Shown: one piece after another, positions 7,967 to 28,571 of the stretch
How positions within the stretch are numbered: the stretch's first letter is position 1
How the letters are laid out: each line of letters starts with the position of its first letter
DNA from: Melioribacteraceae bacterium
Lineage (GTDB): Bacteria; Bacteroidota; Ignavibacteria; Ignavibacteriales; Melioribacteraceae
Direction of reading: 5' to 3'
Assembly: GCA_016927595.1 (NCBI GenBank)
Contig: JAFGMI010000045.1
Coordinates: 1 to 50,203 of the forward strand
DNA length: 50,203 nt
The notes under the pieces: generated by a model
Told to the model about the DNA's origin: nothing
Database searches by the model: none
Seen by the model: only the letters and a program-made list of their open reading frames with translations
Made by a program: the position numbers and the translations under genes

Positions 7967-8000
7967 TTATCATTTTAATAAACATTTATCATTGAAATAA
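7967..8000. promoter_or_regulatory. Tandem palindromic activator sites upstream of the GH5-GH26 unit
   Basis: Two 15-bp imperfect dyads of the form TTATnAnnnTnATAA: TTATCATTTTAATAA at 7967-7981 and TTATCATTGAAATAA at 7986-8000 (one mismatch to the form). Their starts are 19 bp apart. The same pair with the same 19-bp offset occurs at 10718-10751 and 15152-15185. The pair lies 64 bp or more upstream of a sigma-54-like promoter, as expected for enhancer sites of an NtrC-type activator, here probably the regulator encoded at 20527. Local DNA is AT-rich, so chance matches are a risk. Confidence 0.55.
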
Positions 8001-8063
8001 TTTCTGCTCTTATTAGTATTGCCGTCGGATAGCAAATAATTCTGATATCATGATTTATTGTTG

Positions 8064-8078
8064 TGGCATAGTATCTGT
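8064..8078 (+). promoter_or_regulatory. Sigma-54-like -24/-12 promoter for the GH5-GH26 mannanase unit
   Basis: TGGCATAGTATCTGT has GG and the -12 G separated by ten bases, the strict sigma-54 spacing. The -24 half TGGCA matches consensus; the -12 half reads CTGT instead of TTGC. Predicted start of transcription is about 8090, 44 bp before the GH5 ATG. Two other mannan units carry the same variant. Confidence 0.5.
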
Positions 8079-8133
8079 TTAGTTACCAGAAATTATATGC
8101 CTTTTCTTTTCAGTTAAAGGAAACCGGTGATAA

Positions 8134-9498
8134 ATGATAAAAAGAATTCTGTTTTTAATTCCAGTAATATTAATACTACAGAGTTGTACAGGTTTGATAA
8201 CTAAAGAAAAGCAAAGTAATTTCATTCGGGTGGATAACGGAAGATTTATGCTGGATGGATGCCCATACTTCTTTTCCGGTACAAATTTCTGGCATGGCTG
8301 TTATCTTGGTTCTCCCGGTGAAACGGGAGATCGTGAAAGACTTAAACGTGAACTTGACTTTCTACTTTCTATCGGTGTTACAAACCTTCGCGTACTTGCT
8401 GCCTCGGAAGAATCCGATATCAAAAATTCTCTTAAACCAGCCATACAAAAAAAACCGGGTGACTATGACGAAGGTTTACTCGAGGGTCTTGACTATTTAC
8501 TCTCCGAGATGGGCAAGCGCAAAATGCATGCCGTAATATTTTTGAACAATTACTGGGAGTGGTCGGGCGGAATGGCACAGTATAATAGCTGGTTTGGCGA
8601 TCGCGAAATACCCGATCCATCGGATCCCCAAAGCAGCTGGAATGACTTCATGAATTACTCCGCTTCCTTTTATAGAAATAAAGAAGCCAATGAGTACTTC
8701 CGTCAGTTTATTGCGGTTATTGTTACACGGGTTAATAAATTTACCGGAGTGTATTATTACGAAGATCCGACCATAATGGCCTGGCAGCTTGCAAACGAAC
8801 CGCGTCCCGGGAATGGTGAACCCGCGGATAAATATATTGACTATTATTACGCCTGGATTGAATCAACTGCCAGGTTTCTTCATTCGATTGATCCTAATCA
8901 TCTGGTGACTACTGGCAATGAAGGTTTGATGGGTAGTAATGGTTCTGAAGAGTATTATATTAAAGCGCATGAGACTCAATACATAGACTATATTACATTC
9001 CACCTATGGGCAAAGAACTGGGGCTGGTTCGATGGTTCCAGGATTGAGGAAACATTTCCGCAAACTGTGAATAATGCCATTGAATATCTGAACAAACACA
9101 TCGAGTATGCAAGGCTATTGAAAAAACCGATAACCCTAGAGGAGTTTGGTATGCCCAGGGATGGCGAGTTATTTTTAACAGGATCACCGACTACCGCCAG
9201 AGATAAATATTATTCTGCTGTCTTCACGCTCCTTTCGGACAGTGCAGCAGCAGGAGCTCCGGTAGGCGGCTGGAATTTCTGGACCTGGGGAGGAGAAGGT
9301 AAAGCGCTACATGATGACGGGAAATGGCGCAAAGGCGATCCGTTTACAGGTGATCCGCCTCAGGAGGCACAGGGACTTAATTCGGTTTTTGAAAGTGATG
9401 AAAGCACAATAAAAGTAATAAAATATTTCAGTGATAAGATGAATTCACTGAGAAAAATTAAATTAGCTTCGGAAACAATTGCTCAGCAGAATGAATAA
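8134..9498 (+). CDS. GH5 (subfamily 7-like) endo-beta-1,4-mannanase, lipoprotein
   Basis: Hydrolyses internal beta-1,4-mannosidic bonds. It has 454 residues with a lipoprotein signal (lipobox LQSC, Cys18). The catalytic domain starts FIRVDNGRFMLDG...FSGTNFWHG, typical of GH5_7 mannanases. Acid/base E222 lies in WQLANEPRPG and nucleophile E337 in ITLEEFG, and the late WNFWTWGGEG stretch belongs to the same fold. AAAGGAAA at about 8116 precedes the ATG. It overlaps the GH26 start by 8 bp, so the two are one transcription unit behind the sigma-54-like promoter at 8064. Confidence 0.9.
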   Translation: MIKRILFLIPVILILQSCTGLITKEKQSNFIRVDNGRFMLDGCPYFFSGTNFWHGCYLGSPGETGDRERLKRELDFLLSIGVTNLRVLAASEESDIKNSLKPAIQKKPGDYDEGLLEGLDYLLSEMGKRKMHAVIFLNNYWEWSGGMAQYNSWFGDREIPDPSDPQSSWNDFMNYSASFYRNKEANEYFRQFIAVIVTRVNKFTGVYYYEDPTIMAWQLANEPRPGNGEPADKYIDYYYAWIESTARFLHSIDPNHLVTTGNEGLMGSNGSEEYYIKAHETQYIDYITFHLWAKNWGWFDGSRIEETFPQTVNNAIEYLNKHIEYARLLKKPITLEEFGMPRDGELFLTGSPTTARDKYYSAVFTLLSDSAAAGAPVGGWNFWTWGGEGKALHDDGKWRKGDPFTGDPPQEAQGLNSVFESDESTIKVIKYFSDKMNSLRKIKLASETIAQQNE

Positions 9499-10624
9499 AA
9501 TCAGGATAATATTTTCTATTGCAATTTTGATTATGCTTTCGAAATGTATCCCGGAATTTGACAGTATCGAATTCCAGAAAGAGCTCGGCGTAAAACTGGT
9601 GGATTCTTCAGCGACCCGGGAAACCGTACTGTTATTTTACAATCTTAAAAAACTTCCGCAGGATAGTATCATATTCGGTCATCATCACAGCACAGCATAC
9701 GGAGTTTTTTGGCAGGGTGATTCAAACAGGTCCGATGTAAAAGATGTTACAGGATCTTTCCCCGGAGTATATGGCTGGGATTTTGCTGAAGTTACCAACG
9801 TTCCGGACGAACCTGTTCATAAGGATTTGAGTAAATTAACATTGGAAGCGTTTAACAGAGGCGGTGTAAATATCTATGCCTGGCATTATAATAATCCGGT
9901 AACAGGCAATATCTTTTACGATACAACAGTCGCTGTAAAACATATATTACCAGGCGGATCAGTACATCAAAAATATAAAGAGGATCTAGAGAGTATTGCC
10001 CGATTTTCAAAATCACTTTACGCCGATGAAGATTTGCTGGTACCAATAATTTTCAGACCATTTCACGAATTTGACGGCTCATGGTTCTGGTGGGGTAAAA
10101 ACTTTGTTACAAAAGATGAGTTCATTCAATTATGGAGATTCACAGTTACTTATCTGCGTGATTCTCTCTGTGTAAATAATATGCTGTATGCATTTTCGCC
10201 GGATAGAAATTTCGATTCTGATTCGCTTTTCCTTGACCGTTATCCGGGCGATGATTATGTTGATTTGCTGGGAATGGATAATTACTGGGATTTTACTCCG
10301 GAAGGAGACGGACTTGATGCCGTTAAAGAAAAATTAAAGATTGTTTCGGGAATCACAGCAAGAAAAAATAAAATTGCTGCTTTTACTGAAACAGGTTTGG
10401 AAGGAATACCTGATACCACCTGGTGGACTGATAAATTGCTGTACGCTATCCGGGATGATTCAATTAATATTGCTTTTGTTATGGTATGGCGGAATGCTGA
10501 TAATAAACATCACTATGCTCCTTATAAAGGTCACTTAAGTGAGCGGAATTTCATTGAATTCAAAAATGACCCGACTATTCTTTTTGGAGACGAACTCCCA
10601 AATCTCTATAAACTTGAAAAATAG
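9491..10624 (+). CDS. GH26 endo-beta-1,4-mannanase, lipoprotein
   Basis: A retaining mannanase of a family unrelated in sequence to GH5. Using ATG 9491 (inside the overlap ATGAATAA with the GH5 stop) gives 377 residues and a proper lipoprotein signal with Cys19 (LSKC); an upstream TTG at 9479 adds only four residues. Diagnostic motifs are IFGHHHSTAYG, GVYGWDFAE, RPFHEFDGSWFWWG with acid/base E193, and AFTETG with nucleophile E300. The two lipoprotein mannanases are translationally coupled and probably act together at the cell surface or in the periplasm; which face they sit on cannot be seen. A GH26 with another specificity is less likely given the FHEFDGSWFWW signature. Confidence 0.9.
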   Translation: MNKIRIIFSIAILIMLSKCIPEFDSIEFQKELGVKLVDSSATRETVLLFYNLKKLPQDSIIFGHHHSTAYGVFWQGDSNRSDVKDVTGSFPGVYGWDFAEVTNVPDEPVHKDLSKLTLEAFNRGGVNIYAWHYNNPVTGNIFYDTTVAVKHILPGGSVHQKYKEDLESIARFSKSLYADEDLLVPIIFRPFHEFDGSWFWWGKNFVTKDEFIQLWRFTVTYLRDSLCVNNMLYAFSPDRNFDSDSLFLDRYPGDDYVDLLGMDNYWDFTPEGDGLDAVKEKLKIVSGITARKNKIAAFTETGLEGIPDTTWWTDKLLYAIRDDSINIAFVMVWRNADNKHHYAPYKGHLSERNFIEFKNDPTILFGDELPNLYKLEK

Positions 10625-10717
10625 AATTTACAGTTAAATGATGGTATAAAATTATTACCCAACCATTGTTATAGCATTCCTCTGATGCACAAGCACAATT
10701 TCTGTACACTTATCGTT

Positions 10718-10751
10718 TTATTATAATCATAATTTTTTATCAAGATGATAA
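10718..10751. promoter_or_regulatory. Tandem palindromic activator sites upstream of the symporter-GH130 unit
   Basis: TTATTATAATCATAA at 10718-10732 and TTATCAAGATGATAA at 10737-10751; the second is a perfect dyad TTATCA-AGA-TGATAA. Starts are 19 bp apart, exactly as upstream of the GH5 gene and upstream of the regulator operon. They sit about 53 bp before the sigma-54-like element at 10804. Probable binding sites of the NtrC-type regulator at 20527. Confidence 0.6.
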
Positions 10752-10803
10752 TCGGATTGTAAGATTTTAGTCTGTAATCTTCATTTTTCACCAATAATAT
10801 TTA

Positions 10804-10818
10804 TGGCACTATTTATGT
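10804..10818 (+). promoter_or_regulatory. Sigma-54-like -24/-12 promoter for the symporter-GH130 unit
   Basis: TGGCACTATTTATGT: the -24 half TGGCAC is a full consensus match, and the G of the -12 half follows GG after ten bases. The -12 half reads ATGT. Predicted transcription start is about 10830, leaving a ~97-nt leader before the ATG at 10927. Confidence 0.55.
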
Positions 10819-10926
10819 TGATTCAATGAATCCGGTATGAATTAACCGATCTGCTTTTCAAACCACAGGTACCGGCATTTTTTTTAGAGGGTCTTTAACA
10901 TTTTCTTAATATCAAGGAGTAGCTTG

Positions 10927-12345
10927 ATGTCATCGGACTCCGGTCATCCTAAATTATCTTTCCGGGAGAAAGCAGCATATGGTTGTGGTGACTTTGCATC
11001 ATCGATGTTCTGGAAATTGTTCTCGATGTTTCTTCTGTTCTTCTACACCGATGTCTTCGGTATTTCAGCTGCCGCAGTCGGGACAATGTTTCTGGTTACT
11101 AGAATCTGGGATGCGGTTAATGACCCCATGATGGGTCTGATTGCCGACCGGACTAGTTCGCGCTGGGGTAAATTCAGACCATACCTGTTGTTTGTTGCAA
11201 TCCCGTTCGGGATAGCGGGTGTTTTAACATTCACAACTCCCGATTTTGATGCAACGGGTAAACTTATTTATGCTTATGTAACCTACACACTGATGATGAT
11301 GGTCTATACTGCAATTAATGTCCCTTATGCTTCCTTAATGGGTGTAATGTCCAATAATACTGATGACAGAACTTCACTTGCATCTTTCAGATTTGTAGGG
11401 GCATTTTCCGGAGGCTTGTTCGTTACTGCAACTGCAAATACGCTTATTGAATACTTCGGTTCAGCAAGCGGCACTGAAACCGGTTATCAGCTGACAATCG
11501 CAGTTTATTCAGTTACAGCAGCCATATTTTTTGTACTGACTTTTCTAGGGACAAAGGAAAGACTCAAACCGGTTGTGAGTAAGCAGTCTACCTTAAAAGA
11601 AGATTTACATGACCTGGGCAAGAACGGTCCTTGGTTTATAATGCTAGGTGCGAATATATCTATACTGATTTTTAATTCATTGCGTGACGGCTCCATACTT
11701 TATTATTTCAAATATTACATTAAAGATCAGACAATAAATTTCTTCGGAACAGAATACGCCTTTGGTCAGGCGGCGCTTGCATCGGCTTATATGTCGATCT
11801 GGGTAGGAACCAACATCATAGGAGTTATGCTGGCAAAACCGATTGCACATAGATTGGGTAAAAAGAAAACTTATTTTATTTCTGTCGCTTTATCAGCTAT
11901 GCTCAGCATTCTGCTCTTCTTTCTTACTCCAGATCAGATTGAGATGATATTCATCTCGAACATACTCATCGGAGTCTCAGCGGGAATTGTTCTGCCGCTG
12001 ATCTGGTCGATGTATGCTGATATTGCAGATTATTCTGAATGGAAAACGGGAAGAAGGGCAACCGGATTAATTTTTTCATCTTCTTCAATGTCACAGAAAT
12101 TCGGTTGGACACTTGGAGGAACTCTTACCGGCTGGCTGCTGGCTGCGTTCGGATTTCAGGCGAATGTAGAACAGACTGATGATTCTCTGCTGGGCATCAG
12201 GTTAATGATAAGCTTAATTGCGGGTGTTGGTGCAGTGTTGGCAGGGGTATTTATGTATTTCTATAAACTCGACGAAAAATTTATGGCAAAAATTGAAAAA
12301 GAACTGGATGAAGCCAGAAACGGGAAGAAAAAAGAACAATTATAA
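10927..12345 (+). CDS. GPH-family (MelB-like) sugar:cation symporter
   Basis: An inner-membrane importer with about twelve hydrophobic segments. The N-terminal YGCGDFASSMFWKL and the helix-2 motif WDAVNDPMMG carry the two aspartates (DxxxD) that bind the coupling cation in MelB; GKFRPYLL and the C-terminal YADIADYSEWKTGRRATG are further GPH signatures. Start at ATG 10927 (472 residues) because AAGGAG at 10914-10919 sits 7 nt upstream; a TTG at 10924 is less likely. GH130 follows 30 bp later, so the likely cargo is beta-mannobiose or longer manno-oligosaccharides. Cargo is inferred from context. Confidence 0.88.
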   Translation: MSSDSGHPKLSFREKAAYGCGDFASSMFWKLFSMFLLFFYTDVFGISAAAVGTMFLVTRIWDAVNDPMMGLIADRTSSRWGKFRPYLLFVAIPFGIAGVLTFTTPDFDATGKLIYAYVTYTLMMMVYTAINVPYASLMGVMSNNTDDRTSLASFRFVGAFSGGLFVTATANTLIEYFGSASGTETGYQLTIAVYSVTAAIFFVLTFLGTKERLKPVVSKQSTLKEDLHDLGKNGPWFIMLGANISILIFNSLRDGSILYYFKYYIKDQTINFFGTEYAFGQAALASAYMSIWVGTNIIGVMLAKPIAHRLGKKKTYFISVALSAMLSILLFFLTPDQIEMIFISNILIGVSAGIVLPLIWSMYADIADYSEWKTGRRATGLIFSSSSMSQKFGWTLGGTLTGWLLAAFGFQANVEQTDDSLLGIRLMISLIAGVGAVLAGVFMYFYKLDEKFMAKIEKELDEARNGKKKEQL

Positions 12346-12375
12346 TATGATTATTAAGTAAAGACGGTGTTTTAA

Positions 12376-13566
12376 TTGACTAAACATGAACACTATATAA
12401 AAATAAAAGAATTGATTAAAAATCAGGAAGATTTTTTAACAATGTCCAATAGTCCGGTTGATAATTATAACGGTATATATACACGTTATAAAAATCCTGT
12501 ACTTACAGCGGCGCATGCACCGGTTCACTGGCGGTTTGATCTGGATTATTATACTAATCCCGAGTTACAGGAACGTCTCGGTGTGAACGCTACATTCAAT
12601 GCCGGTGCCATTGAACATGAAGGTAAAATTCTGGTTGTAGCAAGAGTTGAAGGATATGACAGAAAGTCATTTTTCGGAATTGCCGAATCGCCAAACGGTA
12701 TTGATAACTTCAGATTCCGGGATTACCCTGTAACAATGCCTGAAACAGATGACCCGGATACTAATGTCTATGATATGCGGTTCGTAAAGCACGAAGACGG
12801 ATGGATATACGGTTTGTTCTGTACTGAAAGAAAAGATCCTGATTCATCCGAGAGTGATACATCGGCTGCCGTGGCGCAGTGCGGAATAGCTCGTACAAAA
12901 AATTTTGTAAACTGGGAAAGATTACCGGATCTTAAAACTAATTCACCGCAGCAGCGTAATGTTGTATTGCATCCTGAATTTGTAAATGGAAAATATGCTC
13001 TATACACACGTCCCCAGGATGGATTTATCAGCACCGGCACGGGCGGAGGAATTGGGTGGGGTGTTACCGATTCGATGGAAAATGCTGTTATTGAAAAAGA
13101 GATTATAGTTGATGACAGGGTATATCACACAATAAAAGAACTGAAAAACGGTCAGGGACCTTCTCCGATTAAAACTGATAAAGGCTGGCTCCACCTGGCT
13201 CATGGTGTAAGAGGAACTGCCGCCGGTTTAAGATATGTGCTTTACATGTTTCTGACTGATCTGAAAGAACCTTACAAGGTAATTGCAAAGCCAGGCGGAT
13301 ATTTTATAGCACCGGAAGGTGATGAAAGAGTTGGTGATGTATCTAATGTTGTTTTCAGTAACGGCTGGGTTGCAAAAGAAAACGGAGATGTTTTTATATA
13401 TTATGCGTCTTCCGATACGCGGCTCCATGTAGCGACATCAACTGTAAACAAACTTATTGATTACGTTTTGAATACTCCCGAGGATGGATACAGATCTGCT
13501 TTGAGTGTAAAAACAAGAAATGAACTGATTGCAAAAAACCTGAAAATTCTGAAAGGTTTCAAATAA
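12376..13566 (+). CDS. GH130 subfamily 1: 4-O-beta-D-mannosyl-D-glucose phosphorylase, TTG start
   Basis: A cytoplasmic enzyme: mannosyl-beta-1,4-glucose plus phosphate to mannose-1-phosphate and glucose. The 396 residues match the Bacteroides fragilis enzyme closely as remembered: [56 protein letters not shown], catalytic D133 in [50 protein letters not shown]. The start is TTG, directly after an in-frame TAA (12373); the first ATG would remove 22 residues that align with the family N-terminus. It partners with the 2-epimerase encoded on the other strand just downstream. Specificity for Man-Glc over mannobiose is supported by that neighbour. Confidence 0.92.
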
Positions 13567-13602
13567 AACTTACTCCTCATGTTAAGACCTCATCGACCCG
13601 AA

Positions 13603-13630
13603 AAAAAATCCGGCTTCAGCCGGATTTTTT
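13603..13630. terminator. Bidirectional intrinsic terminator between convergent GH130 and epimerase genes
   Basis: Perfect 12-bp stem: AAAAAATCCGGC (13603-13614), loop TTCA, GCCGGATTTTTT (13619-13630). It has an A-run on the left and a T-run on the right, so it can stop transcription in both directions. It lies 36 bp after the GH130 stop and 31 bp after the end of the minus-strand epimerase gene. Confidence 0.9.
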
Positions 13631-13661
13631 ATTACCAACCAACTATTTAGGAGGAGAAACA

Positions 13662-15047
13662 CTACAATTTCTGAGCTGTAAATTTCCATTTCTCTAAAAA
13701 ATTATCGAAACTATTTTTAATTTGTTTAAACGCCGGATTTGACTTGTATAATTCAAAATCCTTGTCAGATAAAACTAATATACAATTCATCAATGAACGA
13801 GCAGTGTGATAGGTACACTTCCAGATACTTCCTTTTGGTTCTGTTTTCTGAGCTGGTTCTTTTTCCAGACTGCCCCAGTAAAAATCTCCTTGCTCGTGAT
13901 CAATAAGATATGTTATTATATATTCCCACATTTCAAAGAAAAGTCCGGAGTACTTTTTTTCATCCGGGAATATTTTTGAAAAAATCAGCAGGGCATTTAG
14001 TCCTTCTATTTGAGCCCACCATGTTTTAGTTTTTTTTACAATCTCACATTTATCGCTTTCATCGAAGTAATATCCTTCATCGAAAAAACCCGCACTGGAA
14101 TTATCCCAGCCGTTATCAATTGCATGGTCCAGCATTTTTTTAGCTTTGTTCAGGGTTAATACATCATTATCAATTCCGAGTGCGTGTGATGCTTCGAGCA
14201 TAAGAAACGCAGTCTCATAATCATGACCGAAAGAAACGTGATCCAGCCTGAAATTCTTTTGAATAATATCTCTTGATTCCTCCCTGAATGAAACTGGATT
14301 CCACTTCTTGTCGAAGAATAAACGGAGATAACCATCCGGATGTGCTATGGTATCCCGTATAAGTCTGAGGAGAGCTGATAGTTGCTTCTTTAATCCCGGA
14401 TCTTTCCAAACATGATATAATTCGGTATAGGCTTCGAGAAGATGAATTGAGGAATTCTGATCTTTATAACCGACTTCCACTGCATCCGATGCTTTTGTTT
14501 TATACTTGCTGTTTATATTGAATATTTCGTTGTCTGCTGTTAGAAATTGAAAATATCCTCCGAATTCGGGATCATAGGCATACTCTTCAATCCAGTAATA
14601 AATTTTCTGAGCAAAGTCCAATACTTCTTTGTTTGCGGTTTCAGCAAAAAGTGCTGCTAATCCATAAACCGCGAATGCGTTTCCGTAGGTTCTCTTTTCA
14701 TCGAAGAATCCCTCACAATCAGATAAGCCGCAATCCATTGAGCGCATTTGGTATAAACCACCGGATTGATTATCCCACATACAGGTTTTTAAAAATTTAT
14801 AACCGTGTTCTGCATATTTAATAAATTCCCTCTTGGACAAAAATTTCGCAGACTTCGATGCAGTCCAGATGTGTCTTGCCTGAGTAACCAGCATCTTTGG
14901 CTGTTCATCCATAATTTTGAAGTCATATGTAAGATTTGTAAAATAACCTCCTTTTTCGCTGTCAATGCATATTGGATACCATTTATAAAGCAGCTTTGAA
15001 GTGAGAATCTCGTACATCTCAATTGCAATTTCATTTTTACTTTTCAT
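13662..15047 (-). CDS. AGE-family cellobiose/mannobiose 2-epimerase
   Basis: Predicted to epimerise the reducing-end sugar of beta-1,4-mannobiose to give mannosyl-glucose, the GH130 substrate. An (alpha/alpha)6-barrel of 461 residues, longer than the usual ~390-430. Seen: QARHIWTAS (57-65), RTYGNAFAVYGLA, SSIHLLEAYTEL with H202, SFGHDYETA with H275, KTWWAQIEGLNALL (341-354), and WKCTYHTAR near 403-411 with the second catalytic His. No signal peptide, hence cytoplasmic. It is the only gene of the mannan set on the minus strand and is divergent from the GH-A/sensor operon. N-acylglucosamine 2-epimerase activity is the alternative, but the FGHDYE and context favour the disaccharide epimerase. 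Confidence 0.85.
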   Translation of the reverse strand: MKSKNEIAIEMYEILTSKLLYKWYPICIDSEKGGYFTNLTYDFKIMDEQPKMLVTQARHIWTASKSAKFLSKREFIKYAEHGYKFLKTCMWDNQSGGLYQMRSMDCGLSDCEGFFDEKRTYGNAFAVYGLAALFAETANKEVLDFAQKIYYWIEEYAYDPEFGGYFQFLTADNEIFNINSKYKTKASDAVEVGYKDQNSSIHLLEAYTELYHVWKDPGLKKQLSALLRLIRDTIAHPDGYLRLFFDKKWNPVSFREESRDIIQKNFRLDHVSFGHDYETAFLMLEASHALGIDNDVLTLNKAKKMLDHAIDNGWDNSSAGFFDEGYYFDESDKCEIVKKTKTWWAQIEGLNALLIFSKIFPDEKKYSGLFFEMWEYIITYLIDHEQGDFYWGSLEKEPAQKTEPKGSIWKCTYHTARSLMNCILVLSDKDFELYKSNPAFKQIKNSFDNFLEKWKFTAQKL

Positions 15048-15085
15048 TCAATCCGCTTCATTTAACTTGTTCTGTTAATATCTAC

Positions 15086-15100
15086 TCAAATTCTATGCTA
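15086..15100 (-). promoter_or_regulatory. Weak sigma-54-like element for the epimerase gene
   Basis: On the minus strand the bases read TAGCATAGAATTTGA, eleven of fifteen identical to the element at 8064 and with the same ten-base spacing, but the key -24 GG is AG and the -12 ends GA. It lies about 39 bp from the epimerase ATG and 50-100 bp from the tandem palindromes at 15152-15185, which could serve both directions. The missing GG makes this doubtful. Confidence 0.2.
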
Positions 15101-15151
15101 AGTGAAAAATGATAAAAGCAGAAAAATTTATGATATTTCGCTGAAATCGGT

Positions 15152-15185
15152 TTATAATAATGATATGATTTTATTAAAATGATAA
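15152..15185. promoter_or_regulatory. Tandem palindromic activator sites upstream of the GH-A/sensor operon
   Basis: TTATAATAATGATAT at 15152-15166 (one mismatch to TTATnAnnnTnATAA) and TTATTAAAATGATAA at 15171-15185, again offset by exactly 19 bp. They sit between the divergent epimerase gene and the operon that encodes the NtrC-type regulator, about 83 bp before the sigma-54-like element at 15268. This implies autoregulation. Confidence 0.55.
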
Positions 15186-15267: not shown

Positions 15268-15282
15268 TGGCATTTCAATTGT
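15268..15282 (+). promoter_or_regulatory. Sigma-54-like -24/-12 promoter for the GH-A/sensor operon
   Basis: TGGCATTTCAATTGT: TGGCA at -24 and TTGT at -12 with ten bases between GG and the -12 G, the closest -12 match of the three elements. Predicted start of transcription is about 15294, upstream of the 68-codon ORF at 15389 and of the GH-A gene at 15669. Confidence 0.55.
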
Positions 15283-15388
15283 GACCTTAAAATAAATTGT
15301 TGAAGCACTTTAATTGAGAGTCAATTTGTGTATTGAGAAGTTCTTTTGTTAATAATTTCTTCTTTTCATTTACTCTCCGGATGTATAA

Positions 15389-15595
15389 ATGAAAGATTTC
15401 ATCAAAATAATGGATATACTTGATGCATGGTGTATTGCTCCATATGATTCGGTGAAACGTCTGCCCGATGCAAGGATTAATATGTTGAATATTCTGGGTC
15501 TGAAACGCAGCGAATATGATTGGAGTGAAGAATATTTTGCGTCGATGCAACTGGAACCATCGTTTGAAAATCAGAAAATGATTACTGCAGTCTGA
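15389..15595 (+). CDS. Hypothetical 68-residue protein or gene remnant
   Basis: An open frame of 68 codons begins with ATG about 95 bp after the predicted transcription start at 15294 and reads MKDFIKIMDILDAWCIAPYD... No signal peptide, membrane segment or known motif is recognised, and the ribosome-binding site is weak. The composition is protein-like and it sits in an otherwise empty 620-bp gap. It may be a small gene, a remnant of a longer gene, or chance. Confidence 0.3.
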   Translation: MKDFIKIMDILDAWCIAPYDSVKRLPDARINMLNILGLKRSEYDWSEEYFASMQLEPSFENQKMITAV

Positions 15596-15668: not shown

Positions 15669-17528
15669 ATGAAGCCTTCGCTTAAAATAATTATAATAAT
15701 TTTATTTTTATACATTCTTGGATGCCAGCGTGAAATGGAAAAACCATTTGAAAACTTTATCAGCGTGAAGGGAAACCAACTAATGGATGGTGACAGCTTG
15801 TTCCGTTTTCTTTCATTCAATATTCCGAATTTAAATTTCGTTGAAGATGAAATGAATTTTACAACCCTTCATCCTTTTAGATTACCAGTCAGTTATGAAA
15901 TCAGAGATGCTTTAATGAGCGTAAAACAGATAGGCGGGCAGGTCGTAAGATCATATACGCTTCCCGTAAGAAGAGAATCCGATACACCTGATATTCCGCG
16001 ATATGTAATTGGTCCAGGTGAATTTGATGAAAACTCATTCAAAGTCATGGATACAGTGCTGGCAATTGCTAATGAAGCCGGGATAAGATTAATTGTACCT
16101 CTTCTGAATAATTGGAAGTGGATGGGAGGTGTACCGCAATATGCCGCATTCAGGGGTAAGTTGCCTGAAGAATTTTGGACCGACTCGCTGTTGATTGAAG
16201 ATTTCAAAAAAACTATAGAGTATACACTTAACAGAACGAACACTGCATCGGGGATTAAGTATAAAGATGATAAAGCAATTCTGTGTTGGGAAACGGGGAA
16301 TGAACTAAGCTCGCCTTATTCCTGGACTAAGGAGATTGTAAGCCATATAAAATCGATAGATACCAATCATCTCGTAATGGACGGATTTAATGCAATAGAC
16401 GGAATCGATATTCCTAACGAATCTATTGAAGATTCGCTTATAGATATACTTACAACACATCATTATAAACTTAATCCCGACGAAATTATTTCGGATATCC
16501 GAAAACAACTGGTGCGTATAAACGGTAAGAAGCCGTATATTATTGGTGAGTACGGATTTTTAGGTACGGGTGCCATTGAGCAGATATCAGATTATATTAT
16601 TAATAACGGAATATCAGGCGGTCTTTTGTGGAGTTTGAGATTTCATCGAAGAGAAGGGGGATTTTACTGGCATACCGAACCGTTAGGAGGCGGAATCTTT
16701 AAAGCTTTTCATTACCCTGGTTTTTCATCAGGACGGGAGTATAATGAAGAAGATTTGATGACGATGTTCAGAGACAAAGCATTCCAGATTAAAGGTCTTA
16801 AACCTCTTCCGGATCAGATTCCTGACCCACCTGAACTTTTTCCGATCCATAAGCCGTCTGAAATTTCATGGCAGGGATCTGTCGGGGCAAAATATTACGA
16901 TGTAGAACGATCTGTATCACCCGACGGTAACTGGATTATTGTCGGATATAATGTTTCTGACGCCTGTCAGTACTACACCCCTTTATTCAATGATTATTCC
17001 GCACAGTACGGACAGCAATATTTTTATAGAGTAATTGCTAAAAATATTGCCGGAGAATCGGATCCTTCAAATGTTGTTGGACCCGTCAAAACTTCCGGCA
17101 GAACTCTGGCAGATGATTTCAGGAATATGACGGTTATGTATTTTTATGAAGGTGATATTAATCTGATATCGCGTAACGAACGGGAATTTAAGGAGATAAA
17201 ACACAGGCTCGAATCAAATGAGGGAAGTGCGGTTTATTATTATGTACCTGGGACCATTAAATCTGTCAGGATAAACTTATTCACACAGGAAGATACAACC
17301 TCACTCTCGCTTTCTCTTTCAGAAGACTTTAAAGTATATGATAAGCAGTCAATCGAAAGAAAATCTTATTTCATGGGAAAAGGTGATTATAATTACTGGA
17401 TACCTTCGCAATACTATTCCTCTGTTAATGACACTGCTAAATCGTATAGATACGTTAAGATTAGTATTGAAAAAACGACACAACTTGCACGAGTTGAAAT
17501 AGAATATAAACCTGAAAACATTAAATAA
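15669..17528 (+). CDS. Clan GH-A (GH5-like) glycoside hydrolase lipoprotein with Fn3-like and beta-sandwich C-terminal domains
   Basis: A 619-residue lipoprotein (lipobox ILGC, Cys19). A TIM-barrel at ~30-380 carries the two GH-A glutamates: E212 in WETGNEL and E294 in IIGEYGFLG. GLLWSLRFHRREGGFYWHTEP closes the barrel. A fibronectin-III-like stretch (~395-475, with ISWQGSVGAKYYDVERS) and a last ~140-residue beta-rich domain, possibly carbohydrate binding, follow. I would guess a mannan-acting enzyme (beta-mannosidase or mannanase) from the context; the subfamily is not recognised. ATG at 15669 follows AAAGGGAACTGG. It is the first large gene of the operon that leads into the sensor genes. 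Confidence 0.75.
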   Translation: MKPSLKIIIIILFLYILGCQREMEKPFENFISVKGNQLMDGDSLFRFLSFNIPNLNFVEDEMNFTTLHPFRLPVSYEIRDALMSVKQIGGQVVRSYTLPVRRESDTPDIPRYVIGPGEFDENSFKVMDTVLAIANEAGIRLIVPLLNNWKWMGGVPQYAAFRGKLPEEFWTDSLLIEDFKKTIEYTLNRTNTASGIKYKDDKAILCWETGNELSSPYSWTKEIVSHIKSIDTNHLVMDGFNAIDGIDIPNESIEDSLIDILTTHHYKLNPDEIISDIRKQLVRINGKKPYIIGEYGFLGTGAIEQISDYIINNGISGGLLWSLRFHRREGGFYWHTEPLGGGIFKAFHYPGFSSGREYNEEDLMTMFRDKAFQIKGLKPLPDQIPDPPELFPIHKPSEISWQGSVGAKYYDVERSVSPDGNWIIVGYNVSDACQYYTPLFNDYSAQYGQQYFYRVIAKNIAGESDPSNVVGPVKTSGRTLADDFRNMTVMYFYEGDINLISRNEREFKEIKHRLESNEGSAVYYYVPGTIKSVRINLFTQEDTTSLSLSLSEDFKVYDKQSIERKSYFMGKGDYNYWIPSQYYSSVNDTAKSYRYVKISIEKTTQLARVEIEYKPENIK

Positions 17529-17710: not shown

Positions 17711-19021
17711 ATGACGATAAAAATAAAACAGAAATGGGGACTCGCCTTTTTAGTTCTTGTAACATTCATTTATGTTATTATCAACGTGCTGGATTTTTAC
17801 TCAATCGGTGTTGATGTAAAGGAAATTTATTTTGCAGACCGCATTACGGCAGCGCACGAAATAATTATTGAGAAATATAACAGATTAAATAAAGGCAGAG
17901 TCAGAGTTATACCGATAGATTTCCCGAATTATGATTTTTCCACTAACGAAAGGAAAGAACTTTTAGCCAGATCGTTGAGAGGCAGAGGAGACGGTATCGA
18001 TTTGTTTGCTGTCGACGTTGTTTGGGTACAAAGATTCGCTAAATGGAGTGAACCTTTGGACAAGTATTTCAGCCGGGACGAGAGGGCAAGGCTTCTGAAA
18101 TCGGCAATGGAATCATGCTATAATGACAGCGTACTTGTTGCAGTTCCCCTCGACGCGGTTCAGACGGTGATGTACTACAGAGAGGATCTGTTATTACAGC
18201 TTGAACAAGGACGGGAAATAATTAGCAAGGTTAAAAATCAAATAACATGGGAAGAATTTATTAAATTAAAAAAATATACTGATAATAATTCGCCTCTTTA
18301 TATTTTCCCCGCCGCTGATTATGAAGGATTAATATGCAGTTTTACCGAATTGCTTTTGAGTATTAAACCTGATTATTTCGAGGTAGAGGGATTTAATTTA
18401 ATGACACAGGAAGCAAAAAAAGCGCTTACTTTACTTGTCGATCTTGTTCATAAGTATAAAGTCACACCCCAGATTGTAACGGAGTTTACAGAAGTGCCCA
18501 GCTATGAGTACTTTATTAAAAACGATGGCTATTTTATATGGGGATGGCCCAGCTATGATAAAGATTTCATACAATCGCCATTCGATCCTGACAAAGAAAA
18601 ACATCTGAGAAAAGCCCCATTACCGCATTTCAAGGAGGGAAAGCCGACATCTGTTATCGGTGGATGGAATTTGATGATTTCAAAATTTTCAGATAAAAAA
18701 GAAGAAGTAGTTGAATTTGTGAAATACCTTTTAAGCGATGAATCCCAGGAGATATTCTATACTGAAGCAGGTTACTATCCGGTTATTGAAAAGTTCTACA
18801 CTTCTGAAGAATATATACTTAAATATCCTGAAGCACATGAGGTAAAGGATCATTTAAAGACAGGGGTGCACAGACCAGCTCACGTAGAGTATACACGCTA
18901 TTCTGAAATTCTGTCGCATTTTTTTGAAATGGCTATCCGCAACGAGATAAGTGTGGATGGTGCGCTTATTGAATCGACTAATGCCATAGAAGAAGACAAA
19001 GTTATTACTAAACAGTTCTGA
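17711..19021 (+). CDS. Membrane-anchored extracellular solute-binding protein (family 1, sugar type), probable sensory subunit
   Basis: A 436-residue protein with the fold of ABC sugar-binding proteins: ITAAHEIIIEKYNRLNKGRVRV, DGIDLFAVDVVWVQRFA, VPLDAVQTVMYYREDLL, WEEFIKLKK, GGWNLMISKFS and YLLSDESQEIFYTEAGYYPV. Instead of a cleavable or lipoprotein signal it has a single hydrophobic anchor (~9-29) with no lipobox cysteine and no obvious cleavage site. No ABC permease or ATPase gene is near; the next genes, 15 bp and 8 bp apart, are a histidine kinase and a sigma-54 activator. This suggests it presents a manno-oligosaccharide to the kinase rather than to a transporter. Ligand and partner are inference. 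Confidence 0.78.
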   Translation: MTIKIKQKWGLAFLVLVTFIYVIINVLDFYSIGVDVKEIYFADRITAAHEIIIEKYNRLNKGRVRVIPIDFPNYDFSTNERKELLARSLRGRGDGIDLFAVDVVWVQRFAKWSEPLDKYFSRDERARLLKSAMESCYNDSVLVAVPLDAVQTVMYYREDLLLQLEQGREIISKVKNQITWEEFIKLKKYTDNNSPLYIFPAADYEGLICSFTELLLSIKPDYFEVEGFNLMTQEAKKALTLLVDLVHKYKVTPQIVTEFTEVPSYEYFIKNDGYFIWGWPSYDKDFIQSPFDPDKEKHLRKAPLPHFKEGKPTSVIGGWNLMISKFSDKKEEVVEFVKYLLSDESQEIFYTEAGYYPVIEKFYTSEEYILKYPEAHEVKDHLKTGVHRPAHVEYTRYSEILSHFFEMAIRNEISVDGALIESTNAIEEDKVITKQF

Positions 19022-19036
19022 TATTGAATATTAAAT

Positions 19037-20518
19037 ATGTTCAGGCAAAAGGTTAAAAATAAGTTCTCGAAGTACAGGTTTGAAATCAGGCACATAACCA
19101 TATTCTTTACTGTGCTTATAATCTTCCAGATTCTGCTTTCGCTTATTCAGAAGACTTCACTCCAGGACTTTCTTGAGGAAACACAGAACTGGTATCAAAA
19201 GCATTCTGCGGAAAGGCTTGCAATAATCACTTCAACAAGCATGGAATTACTTTTTGAGAATTTGTTTTTATTTGAAGATCTCACAGAATACGAGAAGCGC
19301 AAGTTAATTTCCTCTTTTAATGTAATCTTTAAACAGCAGCTTTTACAAAAAAGCGTTGAAGATATTTGCCTGATTCTCAGAAAAGACAACAGTATATATA
19401 TTATCGACAGCGGAAATAAGCTGAATGATTTTATTTCAGGGACACTTGAACCTTTTAATGGTGAATCTAATCAGCATCGTGAAGGAGTCGAGTTCTATTT
19501 AAAGCATAAAGAATCGATGAGGGCTGATGAGGTAATATTCAGTACTCTTGAGAATCAACTTACTTTTGATATTCTGGTTCCTTTTGTACCCGACGGCGAA
19601 TACCTCGGGGTTATGTATATGAAAATAACGCCGAATTTTTCGTTTATAACAAAAGAAGTTGCAGCAAATTTTAATCAGGTAGCTATCGTATATTCCGCGC
19701 TCATATTTATTGGTCTGATTGCAATCTTTCTGGTTTCATCCCAGGCAGTTAAAGAACGCAACGAAGCTAAACAGAAATTATATGAGGAGCACGAGGAAAA
19801 TCTTAAAAAACAAATCAAGCTTGAAAAAGAGTCATTGTTTACGAAAAGAATTTATCATACTCATCATAAGGCAGAAAAAATTATCGGTTTTATTAAAAGT
19901 GATATAAGACAGATAAGCGCTGATAATATAGAGGAAACAAGAAAAAGAGTTGTTACCTATTCAAATTTTATTTCCAGAATAATTTATGACATGAAATGGT
20001 ACGACCAGCCCATTAATACTATTGTTAACCCGATGTTCAGGACTGATATCAACGAAGTATTCAGGTTTATAATTCAATATGTTTTTCTGCGGATATCAAG
20101 CAAGAACGAAATGTTTGATTTTAAACTTAACCTGGATGAGAGGATACCTGTTGTAAATGTAAATGAATTTGTCGTCTGGGAAATATTTGAACCACTTATT
20201 CAAAACAGCATTGATCATGGTAAGAAAAAGTATTTAAATATAATAATTGATACCAGGTATGATGTTGAAAATAAAAAGACTTATATCAGCATATCAGATG
20301 ACGGCATAGGAATTTCACCGGAGCTTCTTAAACCCGGCGAGAACGGCATCAAAAAAATATTTCTTGAGAACGAATCCACAAAAAGAATTGAAGGTACTAA
20401 CTCGGGATACGGATGCTATATTGCATATCAGCTGGCAGTGGGTAAATGCGGATGGAGTATGGATGCGGAAAATCTCCCGACCGGGGGCTGCAGCTTTAAA
20501 ATGATAATTTCACATTAG
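19037..20518 (+). CDS. Membrane sensor histidine kinase with divergent phosphoacceptor region
   Basis: A 493-residue inner-membrane kinase. TM1 ~21-38, a periplasmic sensor domain of ~170 residues (VEDICLILRKDNSIYIID... and ILVPFVPDGEYLGVMYMKI, reminiscent of a dCache/PAS-like fold), TM2 ~214-234, then a coiled-coil linker rich in K/E. The presumed dimerisation region has three histidines, H274, H276 and H277 (IYHTHHKAEKIIGF), and lacks the usual H-E/D-x-x-T/P motif. The ATPase domain is normal: N box EPLIQNSIDHGKK, G1 SDDGIGIS, G2 GTNSGYGCYIAYQ. It lies between the binding-protein gene and the sigma-54 activator gene, its likely partners. Confidence 0.88.
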   Translation: MFRQKVKNKFSKYRFEIRHITIFFTVLIIFQILLSLIQKTSLQDFLEETQNWYQKHSAERLAIITSTSMELLFENLFLFEDLTEYEKRKLISSFNVIFKQQLLQKSVEDICLILRKDNSIYIIDSGNKLNDFISGTLEPFNGESNQHREGVEFYLKHKESMRADEVIFSTLENQLTFDILVPFVPDGEYLGVMYMKITPNFSFITKEVAANFNQVAIVYSALIFIGLIAIFLVSSQAVKERNEAKQKLYEEHEENLKKQIKLEKESLFTKRIYHTHHKAEKIIGFIKSDIRQISADNIEETRKRVVTYSNFISRIIYDMKWYDQPINTIVNPMFRTDINEVFRFIIQYVFLRISSKNEMFDFKLNLDERIPVVNVNEFVVWEIFEPLIQNSIDHGKKKYLNIIIDTRYDVENKKTYISISDDGIGISPELLKPGENGIKKIFLENESTKRIEGTNSGYGCYIAYQLAVGKCGWSMDAENLPTGGCSFKMIISH

Positions 20519-20526
20519 GAGACAGC

Positions 20527-21984
20527 ATGACAAAAAACAAGCATATAGACATATTGCTGGTTGAGGATGAGGACTTTGATGTTCAGCGTGTTAAAAATAC
20601 AATCAGTTATTATGACACCAGTATAAAGATTACCGATACTGTTTCGAACGGACTGGCTGCGCTCGAATTGATAAAAGAGAATCCGGATAAGTATGATGTT
20701 GTTATTCTCGATTACCAGATCTCAGGCGGTCTGATGGGCGAAGAATTAATAAAAAAAATAAAGGAGTCGGATCCCTTCATTCAGATTATTGTTATTACGA
20801 AAATGACAATTAACATAACCGATTATGAATTTGCAAATAACCTTATCAAATCCGGTGCTTTCTGGTATTGCACAAAATATCCGGGCAATATTGAGGATTA
20901 CATTTATCAGCCTACAGACTTTATACTGAGTATTTTTAACGCTCATGAAAAGAAAAAACTTGAGAAGCACAAACTAAAATCCGACAGCAGGCTGAAAAAA
21001 AATATTGATGCTTTGCTCGATTCCAAAAAAATAATCGGTGAATCAAAACAAATAATTCAGCTTAAAGAAATGATTGAAAAATATGCGAAAAGTGATGTGA
21101 ATGTTTTGATAAACGGACCCTCCGGAACAGGCAAAGAACTCGTTGCCTGGAATATTCATCTGAAAAGCAACCGCAAGTATGAAAATTTTGTGCCGATAAA
21201 CTGCGGAAGTATACCCGGCGAACTAATTGAAAGCGAATTGTTCGGATATGAACGCGGCTCTTTTACGGGAGCTGTTACCACAGGTAAATCAGGATTATTC
21301 GAAATTGCGAATAACGGTACGATATTTCTGGATGAAGTTGCTGAATTACCTCTATCGGCGCAGGTTAAATTGCTGAGAGTAATCCAGGAGGGTGAAATTG
21401 AAAAAATCGGTCGTACCAAAAAAATTTCGGTTAATGTGAGAATTATTGCGGCAACAAATAAAAACCTTGTGAACGAAGTGAATAATAAGAAGTTTAGAGA
21501 GGATTTGTATTATCGTTTGAATGTAGTCCCGATAGATATAGTACCCTTAAGAAAAAGGGGAAACGACATATTGTTGCTGTTCGATCATTTTATGCAGTAT
21601 TTCAGCAATGATCTGGGTATGGAAGAACCGGAGCTGGCAGATGATGCAAAAGAAATTCTTCTCAACTATAAATGGCCCGGAAATGTTAGAGAATTAAGAA
21701 ATGTTGCACAAAGACTGATACTTAATTGTAATGGAATGATTACAGCTAAGGATATGAGTAATCCTATGATTTTAAGAAACCATATGATTCTTACAGAAGA
21801 AACAAACTTTGAGGAACTAAACTTCGGACAAGTTTTACCTTTAAGAGAGATAGAGAAAATATTCAGGGTAAAGTACTTCAAATATGTAAGAAGCATTTCC
21901 AGCTCGGATTCCAGCGCTGCGGAAAAACTTGGATTAGCTCCGTCCAATTTTTACAGGATGTGTAAGGAACTTGGAATTAAATAG
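20527..21984 (+). CDS. NtrC-family sigma-54-dependent response regulator
   Basis: A 485-residue activator. The receiver domain (~5-130) has acidic residues VEDEDFD, phosphoacceptor D62 (VVILDYQ) and the conserved lysine in CTKYP. The AAA+ domain (~170-400) has Walker A NGPSGTGKE, a sigma-54 contact loop ESELFGYERGSFTGA (GSFTGA for the usual GAFTGA), Walker B GTIFLDEV, sensor-I AATNKNL and the arginine-finger stretch REDLYYRLNVVPI. A C-terminal Fis-type helix-turn-helix (~445-485, SSAAEKLGLAPSNFYRMCKELGIK) binds DNA. It follows the kinase by 8 bp. Its predicted targets are the tandem palindromes at 7967, 10718 and 15152, including its own operon. Confidence 0.93.
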   Translation: MTKNKHIDILLVEDEDFDVQRVKNTISYYDTSIKITDTVSNGLAALELIKENPDKYDVVILDYQISGGLMGEELIKKIKESDPFIQIIVITKMTINITDYEFANNLIKSGAFWYCTKYPGNIEDYIYQPTDFILSIFNAHEKKKLEKHKLKSDSRLKKNIDALLDSKKIIGESKQIIQLKEMIEKYAKSDVNVLINGPSGTGKELVAWNIHLKSNRKYENFVPINCGSIPGELIESELFGYERGSFTGAVTTGKSGLFEIANNGTIFLDEVAELPLSAQVKLLRVIQEGEIEKIGRTKKISVNVRIIAATNKNLVNEVNNKKFREDLYYRLNVVPIDIVPLRKRGNDILLLFDHFMQYFSNDLGMEEPELADDAKEILLNYKWPGNVRELRNVAQRLILNCNGMITAKDMSNPMILRNHMILTEETNFEELNFGQVLPLREIEKIFRVKYFKYVRSISSSDSSAAEKLGLAPSNFYRMCKELGIK

Positions 21985-27524: not shown

Positions 27525-27542
27525 TTATACAGTGTGGTTAAA

Positions 27543-28571
27543 ATGACTGAAAAATCAGTAACACTTAATGATATTGCAAAAAGACTTAATTACTCCACGG
27601 TTACCATCTCAAAGGCACTTAGAAATCATCCGGATATTTCCCCTCAGACAACCAAACTGATTAAATCTGTCGCCGAGGAAATGGGTTATACTCCGAATAT
27701 AATGGCACGTAACTTATCTGCCAGACGATCGAATACAATCGGAGTTGTCGTTCCTAAAATAGCACATTTCTTTTTCAGTGCTATCATCGAGTCGATTTAT
27801 GACTATGCGTTCAATCATAATTACGAAATAATTCTAACCGTTTCGCAGGAAAATGCCGAAAGAGAAAAGAGACATATTCAAACTTTACTGGCTATGAAGG
27901 TCGATGGTATTATCGTTTCAATTTCCCAGGAGACCAAGAATTATGAAATATTTGAAACTGTAAGAAGACGAGGTGTGCCTCTCGTTTTTATGGATCGTAT
28001 ACCTGCAATCGAAAATATTAATACTGTACAGGTTAACGACAGAGAAGGCGCATTCAAGGCAATTGAACACGCAATAAAATTAGGTTACAGAAATATTGCC
28101 CATTTTGCAGGTTACTCAGATATTAATATAGGTCGCGAAAGATATTACGGATTTAAGGATGCGATGGATCAATACAATATACCGATAAAACCGGAATGGG
28201 TGGTAGCCGGTGAATTCGGAGAAAATCATGGTTATGATGGTTTAATGGAACTGCATAGACAAAATAATCTTCCTGATCTCATTTTTACTGTTACGTATCC
28301 CGTTGCACTTGGAGTTTATATGGCAGCCAGAGAACTGAATCTCAAAATACCGGATGATATCGATGTAATATGTTTCGGGAACGCAAAGGTGCAGAACTTT
28401 TTATCACCGCCGCTAAGCTGTGTCGATCAGCCTACTAATCTGCTGGCATCAGAATCTATGGAGATTTTACTTGAGAATATTAACTCTGCTGACGGTTTCG
28501 AACCCAGAAATATACAGATCCCGACCGAATTGATTTTGCGAGGTACCTGCAGAAAATTCAATAAGGAATAA
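27543..28571 (+). CDS. LacI-family transcriptional regulator
   Basis: A 342-residue regulator from ATG 27543; a GTG at 27534 adds three residues. The helix-turn-helix VTLNDIAKRLNYSTVTISKALRNHPDISPQT is followed by the hinge helix NIMARNLSARRS and a periplasmic-binding-like effector domain starting TIGVVVPKIAHFF, with MKVDGIIVS and VPLVFMDRIP. It lies 18 bp after GH105 and 46 bp before GH28. The 19-bp element at 26247, 30111 and 46750 is the probable operator. Effector is likely a pectin breakdown sugar, by context only. Confidence 0.93.
   Translation: MTEKSVTLNDIAKRLNYSTVTISKALRNHPDISPQTTKLIKSVAEEMGYTPNIMARNLSARRSNTIGVVVPKIAHFFFSAIIESIYDYAFNHNYEIILTVSQENAEREKRHIQTLLAMKVDGIIVSISQETKNYEIFETVRRRGVPLVFMDRIPAIENINTVQVNDREGAFKAIEHAIKLGYRNIAHFAGYSDINIGRERYYGFKDAMDQYNIPIKPEWVVAGEFGENHGYDGLMELHRQNNLPDLIFTVTYPVALGVYMAARELNLKIPDDIDVICFGNAKVQNFLSPPLSCVDQPTNLLASESMEILLENINSADGFEPRNIQIPTELILRGTCRKFNKE

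Follow-up and report, generated by a model that had tools for sequence, protein, structure and literature searches.

Analysis of a 50,203-nt stretch of DNA from a Melioribacteraceae bacterium (hereinafter the window; contig C51 of genome G000, which comprises 3.85 Mb in 59 contigs) uncovered a paired palindromic element upstream of genes predicted to act in mannan utilization. We propose that each pair very probably serves as an upstream activating sequence for the NtrC-type response regulator encoded at position 20527, two dimers of which would bind there, and that these pairs together control a mannan regulon. The pairs themselves, their recurrence in relatives, their co-occurrence with the regulator, the sigma-54 promoter elements beside them, the phasing of those elements, and the content of the adjacent genes are all directly observed, and up to the step of binding itself we regard this interpretation as well supported.

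Paired dyads at an invariant offset

Three intergenic regions of the window each contain two copies of the 15-bp palindrome TTATnAnnnTnATAA, all of whose fixed positions are A or T: P1, upstream of the GH5-like and GH26 genes; P2, upstream of the MFS_2 symporter and GH130 genes; and P3, upstream of an operon that encodes a GH5-like hydrolase, a solute-binding protein, a sensor histidine kinase, and the regulator. An initial annotation of the window had reported these pairs (with starts at 7967/7986, 10718/10737, and 15152/15171) as having an invariant 19-bp offset and at most one mismatch per site. All three are present at a start-to-start offset of exactly 19 bp, which leaves 4 bp between the copies, and four of the six dyads match the form exactly, those at 7986 and 15152 having one mismatch each. 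Single dyads with ≤1 mismatch are more frequent in the window than expected (22 versus 9.1, with a maximum of 17 in 100 shuffles), and pairs with ≤1 mismatch in total were found three times at offset 19 and not at all at every other offset from 8 to 44.

On the scale of the whole G000 genome, the two-site pattern (offset 19, ≤1 mismatch) occurs at four places. Three are the window pairs, and the fourth (C53:17587) lies 3 bases from a contig end; two further pairs (C53:5570 and C38:65811) have two mismatches. The background was estimated from Markov nulls and a reversed pattern instead of a dinucleotide shuffle. Three genomes simulated under a second-order Markov null yielded no pairs with ≤2 mismatches, and three with the intergenic composition of the window throughout yielded one pair with ≤1 mismatch and 14 with ≤2. 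Thus, the four low-mismatch pairs compare with none or one per three random genomes. The reversed-pattern control gave no match in G000 at ≤1 mismatch; at ≤3 mismatches it nearly equaled the signal (7 versus 10 places), and therefore only low-mismatch matches are informative and those with three mismatches were left unused.

Co-occurrence of the pairs with the regulator

We surveyed 146 relatives for offset-19 pairs with ≤1 mismatch; 21 of these genomes encode an orthologue ≥70% identical to the regulator at 20527 (one of them partial), and 125 do not. At least one such pair was recovered in 20 of the 21 and in 15 of the 125 (Fisher p = 3e-14, a value that ignores relatedness), amounting to 64 pairs (48 and 16, respectively) versus 6 for the reversed pattern. 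In relatives, the pairs recur before the same kinds of genes, and their presence tracks that of the regulator orthologue. Inspection of 14 of the 15 orthologue-free genomes (all but G073) showed that the pair overlaps a pair with an offset of 21 to 24 in seven, is coding in three, and is unexplained in four (L061, L166, L174, and L177), of which only L174 has, within 1.5 kb, a relative of any sugar gene from the window, and that a weak one (31% identity over 145 residues). The same check applied to 47 pairs from the 20 orthologue-containing genomes found no overlap and a single coding pair, with all 20 retaining a clean pair. Upon removal of coding and overlapping cases from both sides, the counts become 20 of 21 versus 5 of 125 genomes. 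L061 (G053:C48:7407) is a case in its own right: its offset-19 pair is perfect, a search of that genome recovered no regulator of the mannan clade, and none of the sugar genes of the window has a relative within 1.5 kb.

Sigma-54 promoter elements and helical phasing

At all three window promoters, a TGGCA-N6-TG element of the sigma-54 −24/−12 type lies downstream of the pair; P3 has a second element of 10.3 bits that points in the opposite direction, toward the epimerase gene. The bit values of these elements rest on position scores taken from a general consensus rather than derived from data. The search covered either side of each pair, starting 20 bp from the start of the second dyad, and for the statistics identical pair sequences were counted once, pairs that include a dyad with ≥2 mismatches were excluded, and coding pairs were retained. 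Elements of ≥9 bits were found near 31 of 52 distinct pairs with offsets of 18 or 19 from the fetched loci, compared to a mean of 2.4 and a maximum of 6 with shuffled flanks, and near 25 of 55 pairs around paralogous regulators (see below), compared to 1.9 in shuffles. The G000 genome has one RpoN (Sigma54_DBD, 203 bits, at C6).

The distances from the second dyads to the TGGCA given in the initial annotation (78, 67, and 97 bp) proved correct. The 31 pair-to-element distances are 55, 66 to 68 (6 cases), 75 to 79 (14 cases), 90 (2 cases), 97 (2 cases), 106, 119, 131, 139, 146, and 159 bp. They are helically phased (vector strength R of 0.69 near 10.3 bp), a value reached by none of 3,000 sets jittered by up to 6 bp. 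The phasing is weaker when each distance is counted once (22 of 3,000 jittered sets reach R), and 48 of 3,000 do so when the unique distances of both regulator clades are pooled.

The regulator, its sensor operon, and a proposed mechanism

The GAFTGA loop of NtrC-type activators is the part that touches sigma-54. The regulator at 20527 has this loop in the form GSFTGA, seven aligned orthologues have either GAFTGA or GSFTGA, and the best match among solved structures is the NtrC-family regulator 4l4u. We define orthologues (clade A) as proteins with about 70% identity or more to this regulator; the paralogues are 58 to 64% identical. Where at least 3.5 kb upstream is available, 25 of 27 orthologous loci preserve the order solute-binding protein-kinase-regulator, which is also seen in 34 of 40 loci of the paralogues. 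The 80 named regulator loci are distributed over Ignavibacteria(e)/Melioribacter/Stygiobacter (49), Bacteroidetes/Bacteroidota (26), KSB1 (2), and others (3). Taken together, the co-occurrence, the sigma-54 elements, the receiver and sigma-54 activation domains of the protein, and the RpoN favor the suggestion, already made in the initial annotation, that the pairs are the enhancer of this regulator.

The N-terminal membrane stretch of the solute-binding protein at 17711 looks uncleaved, and the protein adjoins a kinase with two predicted membrane helices (no HisKA match at an E value of ≤0.1). The scan of window proteins showed no ABC permease. The solute-binding protein may be a sensor rather than part of a transporter. 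Instead of a hybrid regulator, or a SusR beside SusC/SusD, as in SusR/HTCS-type systems, we found a separate kinase and a sigma-54 response regulator, and a scan of 25 window proteins, of which 20 were compared with Pfam, gave no match to SusD. Downstream of the operon are genes for GH97 and GH27 proteins. An open reading frame of 68 codons (15389 to 15595) lies between the P3 sigma-54 element and the GH5-like gene; it had no relative in the fetched loci.

These features suggest the following scheme, in which the binding, the dimer arrangement, the inducing sugar, and the direction of control are what we infer. In the periplasm, the anchored solute-binding protein would sense a mannan-derived oligosaccharide together with the kinase, which would phosphorylate the regulator. 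Two phosphorylated regulator dimers would then assemble on the dyads 19 bp apart, form an ATPase ring, and reach by looping a sigma-54 RNA polymerase poised on the TGGCA-N6-TG element at a phased distance 67 to 97 bp on, where ATP hydrolysis would open the promoter. The targets would be the mannanases, the mannoside phosphorylase, the symporter, the epimerase, a TonB receptor encoded on contig C53, and the sensor operon itself, implying autoregulation.

Predicted content of the regulon

To assess the content of the regulon, we used the 51 pairs with offsets of 18 or 19 and ≤2 mismatches in the clade-A genomes, an adjacent gene being counted if it encodes a relative with ≥50% identity. All but one of these pairs lie outside open reading frames (50 of 51), and 28 are adjacent to a mannan-core or TonB-receptor gene. 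By number of genomes with an adjacent relative, the families recovered are GH130 (8), GH5-like (8), the C53 TonB receptor (7), GH26 (3), the epimerase (2), and GH27 (1). Relatives of the GH5-like protein at 8134 (56 to 64% identity) follow paired dyads in other genomes.

In G000, the regulon would comprise the GH5-like and GH26 genes; the MFS symporter and GH130 genes; the epimerase gene, facing the GH5-like/solute-binding protein/kinase/regulator operon with GH97 and GH27 downstream; and the C53 TonB receptor with its CBM35/type-IX-secreted partner. Less surely, it might extend to a C53 GH94 gene facing an MFS gene and a GH130-like gene (28% identity) and to a C38 GH3 gene. Judging from the family names, these would be the parts needed to take apart galactoglucomannan.

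Evaluation of alternative explanations

Several observations weigh against the proposal that the pairs are enhancers of the regulator at 20527. Its C terminus is conserved and has helix-turn-helix-like letters but matches no Pfam helix-turn-helix model at an E value of ≤0.001. Genome G042 encodes the regulator yet lacks any offset-19 pair with ≤1 mismatch; 29 of 33 orthologous loci have no such pair in the stretch around the regulator gene, many of these stretches being short; and in G002, the nearest relative of G000, the pair beside the sensor operon has three mismatches in one dyad. Two of the six promoters in the genome of the window itself (C53:5570 and C38:65811) are less certain because pairs with two mismatches also arise in random genomes of intergenic composition. 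Finally, 21 of the 52 distinct pairs have no sigma-54 element of ≥9 bits, and 23 of the 51 regulon pairs have no adjacent mannan-core or TonB-receptor gene by the adjacency rule.

The alternative that we take most seriously, while considering it unlikely, is that another factor sharing the regulon binds the pairs, either a paralogous NtrC-type regulator (e.g., that at C55:22677) or an unrelated palindrome-binding repressor, and that the co-occurrence merely reflects mannan gene content. Indeed, the same genome has paralogues with a very similar recognition region and sites with nearly the same palindrome, and co-occurrence alone cannot separate the regulator at 20527 from its gene set. However, the pairs around the paralogues are mostly at offsets of 21 to 24 rather than 19, offset-19 pairs are rare in genomes lacking an orthologue of the 20527 regulator, the downstream element calls for a sigma-54 activator, and one of the pairs lies at the head of the operon to which the regulator gene belongs.

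The direction of control is not readable from sequence, and the dyads might accordingly be operators for repression or modulation by this regulator or another protein, instead of activating enhancers. This is improbable, given that most pairs with a sigma-54 element lie 66 to 97 bp upstream of it, at phased distances and without overlap (in a search that began 20 bp from the start of the second dyad), the usual place of an activator enhancer. A still slighter probability, small enough that we reject the idea, attaches to the pairs being a chance or composition effect of AT-rich intergenic DNA. The A/T-only fixed positions of the motif and the near parity with the reversed pattern at ≤3 mismatches would fit such an origin, but the random-genome, offset-scan, and reversed-pattern controls contradict it: at ≤1 mismatch the reversed pattern is absent from G000, far rarer than the true one in the 146 genomes, and absent from both sets of regulator loci (33 orthologous and 47 paralogous). 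In addition, the offsets show a sharp peak, and relatives have pairs beside the same types of genes.

Paralogous regulators and an apparent switch in dyad spacing

Beyond what the initial annotation described, paralogous regulators use nearly the same palindrome at a wider spacing, and we consider the single spacing change between sister regulators to be the most interesting part of this work. In the 33 clade-A regulator loci, pairs with ≤1 mismatch are found at offsets 18 (1) and 19 (7) and at no other offset from 12 to 45, all of them coming from four of the loci. In the 47 paralogue loci, they are found at offsets 21 (13), 22 (27), 23 (10), and 24 (3), with 13 elsewhere, 5 of these at 18 or 19; in part, these stray offsets represent a single site read in overlapping registers. 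The C-terminal recognition region is near-identical between the clades (LAPSNFYRMCKELG versus, e.g., LAPPNYYRMCKELG), as is the palindrome, which differs slightly at position 5 and in its flanking bases. At offset 22, the half-sites TTAT, ATAA, TTAT, and ATAA are spaced at 11-bp steps along the same face of the helix; at offset 19 the middle step is 8 bp, and the second dimer would be turned by roughly 100 degrees.

When mapped on a tree of 83 regulators (one quick tree), the spacing label changes once, on a branch with a support of 100. The labels were 18 to 19 for 5 rows and 21 to 24 for 33 rows, with 45 rows unlabeled (2 of them ties) and the label of the window set by hand from its three pairs. 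Hence, a single change of spacing appears to have accompanied the origin of the mannan regulator. With the tree rooted on one very long branch, clade A falls within the paralogues, and the spacing of 21 to 24 would be the older one; both the nesting and this polarity depend on that root.

Six genomes with both regulators allow a direct comparison, for which only fetched wider pairs were used and offset-19 pairs were allowed two mismatches in G000 and one in the others. A mannan-core gene follows 11 of 20 offset-19 pairs versus none of 16 pairs with offsets of 21 to 23 (Fisher p = 0.0006), the mannan-core set being defined from the window, such that its own pairs count by construction; without the genome of the window, the figures are 8 of 15 versus 0 of 14 (p = 0.002). 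In the other genomes, the 10 scanned proteins beside wider pairs belong to the GH3 (4), GH9 (1), SSF (3), and MFS (2) families, which is in line with a role in beta-glucan use. In G000, a paralogous solute-binding protein-kinase-regulator operon (C55:22677 to 24116) is accompanied by pairs with a 22-bp offset at C55:24122 and C55:26309 (L041:10122 and 12309); its neighbors encode a GH5 protein with CBM6/CBM35, an SSF symporter, a CBM9 protein, and a TonB receptor. A role restricted to beta-glucan is not supported for this regulator, which may also act on mannan genes, because a GH5 protein with CBM6 was called a predicted mannanase in Melioribacter roseus (PMC3534657), and the substrate split is thus less clear in G000.

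It is conceivable, and we put this forward tentatively as a little short of probable, that dyad spacing is a specificity code between paralogous enhancer-binding proteins. In such a code, the center-to-center distance, 18 to 19 bp in the mannan clade versus 21 to 24 bp in the paralogues, would be the chief separator, and one switch at the base of the mannan clade would in effect have created a new regulon. Spacing may thereby help to insulate the paralogues. A pure spacing code is supported in part only, as the letters of the dyads alone already separate the clades: a leave-one-out classifier on these letters assigned 38 of 44 pairs with offsets of 18 or 19 and 39 of 51 wider pairs correctly, figures inflated by related sequences, and therefore the dyads themselves also differ between the clades. 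As a separate observation, two wide-spaced pairs lie about 90 bp apart in the same region (G127:C20:92312 and 92401; L137:15743 and 15833); those of L137 lie between divergent genes, each facing a sigma-54-like element.

Features of the window

The dyads, promoter elements, and genes considered above are collected in Table 1. Elsewhere in the window, the gene of a LacI-family regulator (27534 to 28571) neighbors GH88, alpha-galacturonidase-like, and pectate-lyase-like genes; this is apparently a pectin cluster that is controlled in another way. The protein encoded at 308 to 1780 resembles MscS channels at its beginning and cyclic-nucleotide-binding regulators toward its end.

Table 1. Paired dyads, sigma-54 elements, and genes of the proposed mannan system in the window
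Feature	Coordinates	Strand	Evidence or remark
P1 dyad 1	7967..7981	none	exact match to TTATnAnnnTnATAA
P1 dyad 2	7986..8000	none	one mismatch; offset 19 from P1 dyad 1
P1 sigma-54 −24/−12-like element TGGCATAGTATCTGTT	8064..8079	+	12.6 bits, best-scoring near the pair; 78 bp from dyad 2 start
GH5-like, lipoprotein-like gene	8134..9498	+	no Pfam match at E ≤ 0.001; predicted mannanase; family name from the initial annotation
GH26 (beta-mannanase family)	9479..10624	+	Pfam Glyco_hydro_26, E 7.5e-44
P2 dyad 1	10718..10732	none	exact match
P2 dyad 2	10737..10751	none	exact match
P2 sigma-54 element TGGCACTATTTATGTT	10804..10819	+	13.1 bits; 67 bp from dyad 2 start
MFS_2 sugar symporter	10924..12345	+	Pfam MFS_2, E 9.9e-98
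GH130 mannoside phosphorylase family	12376..13566	+	Pfam Glyco_hydro_130, E 1.6e-25
GlcNAc_2-epim family epimerase (predicted mannobiose/cellobiose 2-epimerase)	13662..15047	-	Pfam, E 3e-38; divergent from P3
P3 dyad 1	15152..15166	none	one mismatch
P3 dyad 2	15171..15185	none	exact match
P3 sigma-54 element TGGCATTTCAATTGTG	15268..15283	+	10.9 bits; 97 bp from dyad 2 start
GH5-like hydrolase (sensor operon, first large gene)	15669..17528	+	Pfam Cellulase, E 3.5e-6
Solute-binding protein, proposed sugar sensor	17711..19021	+	Pfam SBP_bac_1; N-terminal hydrophobic stretch 7-34
Sensor histidine kinase	19037..20518	+	Pfam HATPase_c; hydrophobic stretches 15-42 and 210-240
NtrC-type response regulator, proposed to bind the paired dyads	20527..21984	+	Pfam Response_reg, 1.8e-11; Sigma54_activat, 6.9e-69

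Comparison with known regulatory systems

The paired dyads provide a candidate sigma-54 enhancer, defined by its sequence, for the use of hemicellulose by a group that is represented chiefly by metagenomes, and through it the mannan regulon becomes readable from genomes. The many genomes with two sister regulators sharing a recognition sequence also constitute a natural experiment on how paralogous enhancer-binding proteins stay apart. A literature search, which covered few subscription papers, found no published description of the site or of sigma-54 control of mannan genes in Ignavibacteriota. To our knowledge, neither TTATnAnnnTnATAA nor a rigid 19-bp center distance is among the known NtrC-family enhancer sites.

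Several known systems resemble this one in part. NtrC-family enhancers, which serve an activator with an AAA+ domain, are described as lying about 100 to 150 bp upstream of the promoter (PMC7057263). Like the sites of NtrC, NifA, PspF, and ZraR, those described here are dyads, often paired, upstream of a −24/−12 promoter (PMC7057263); they are unlike them in having mannan genes of Ignavibacteria-like genomes as targets. CelR and other Clostridiales sigma-54 sugar regulators likewise place carbohydrate use (cellobiose) under sigma-54 control (PMC6615313). Unlike the regulator at 20527, CelR has a phosphotransferase system (PTS) regulation domain, according to a title in the references of PMC6615313, and is not part of a two-component system that includes a solute-binding protein; the main text of that paper nowhere uses the word mannan.

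Other parallels concern paired sites. NmpR of Myxococcus xanthus, also an NtrC-like response regulator with two palindromes per promoter, recognizes GCGCA-N5-TGCGC, with 14 to 15 nt between the sites in five of seven bound promoters, and its authors suggest that the spacing is important (PMC11841059). Its palindrome is different, its gap is 14 to 15 nt as opposed to the 4 nt found here, and it controls an oxygen regulon; the available part of PMC11841059 contains no comparison of spacing between paralogous regulators. VnfA1 of Azotobacter vinelandii, too, belongs to a set of paralogous enhancer-binding proteins, and most of its promoters have two motifs at a similar spacing (PMC9542535). In contrast to the dyads of the mannan clade, however, its motif is GT(T/A)C-N6-GTAC, its targets are nitrogenase genes, and the paralogues act together rather than being kept apart (PMC9542535).

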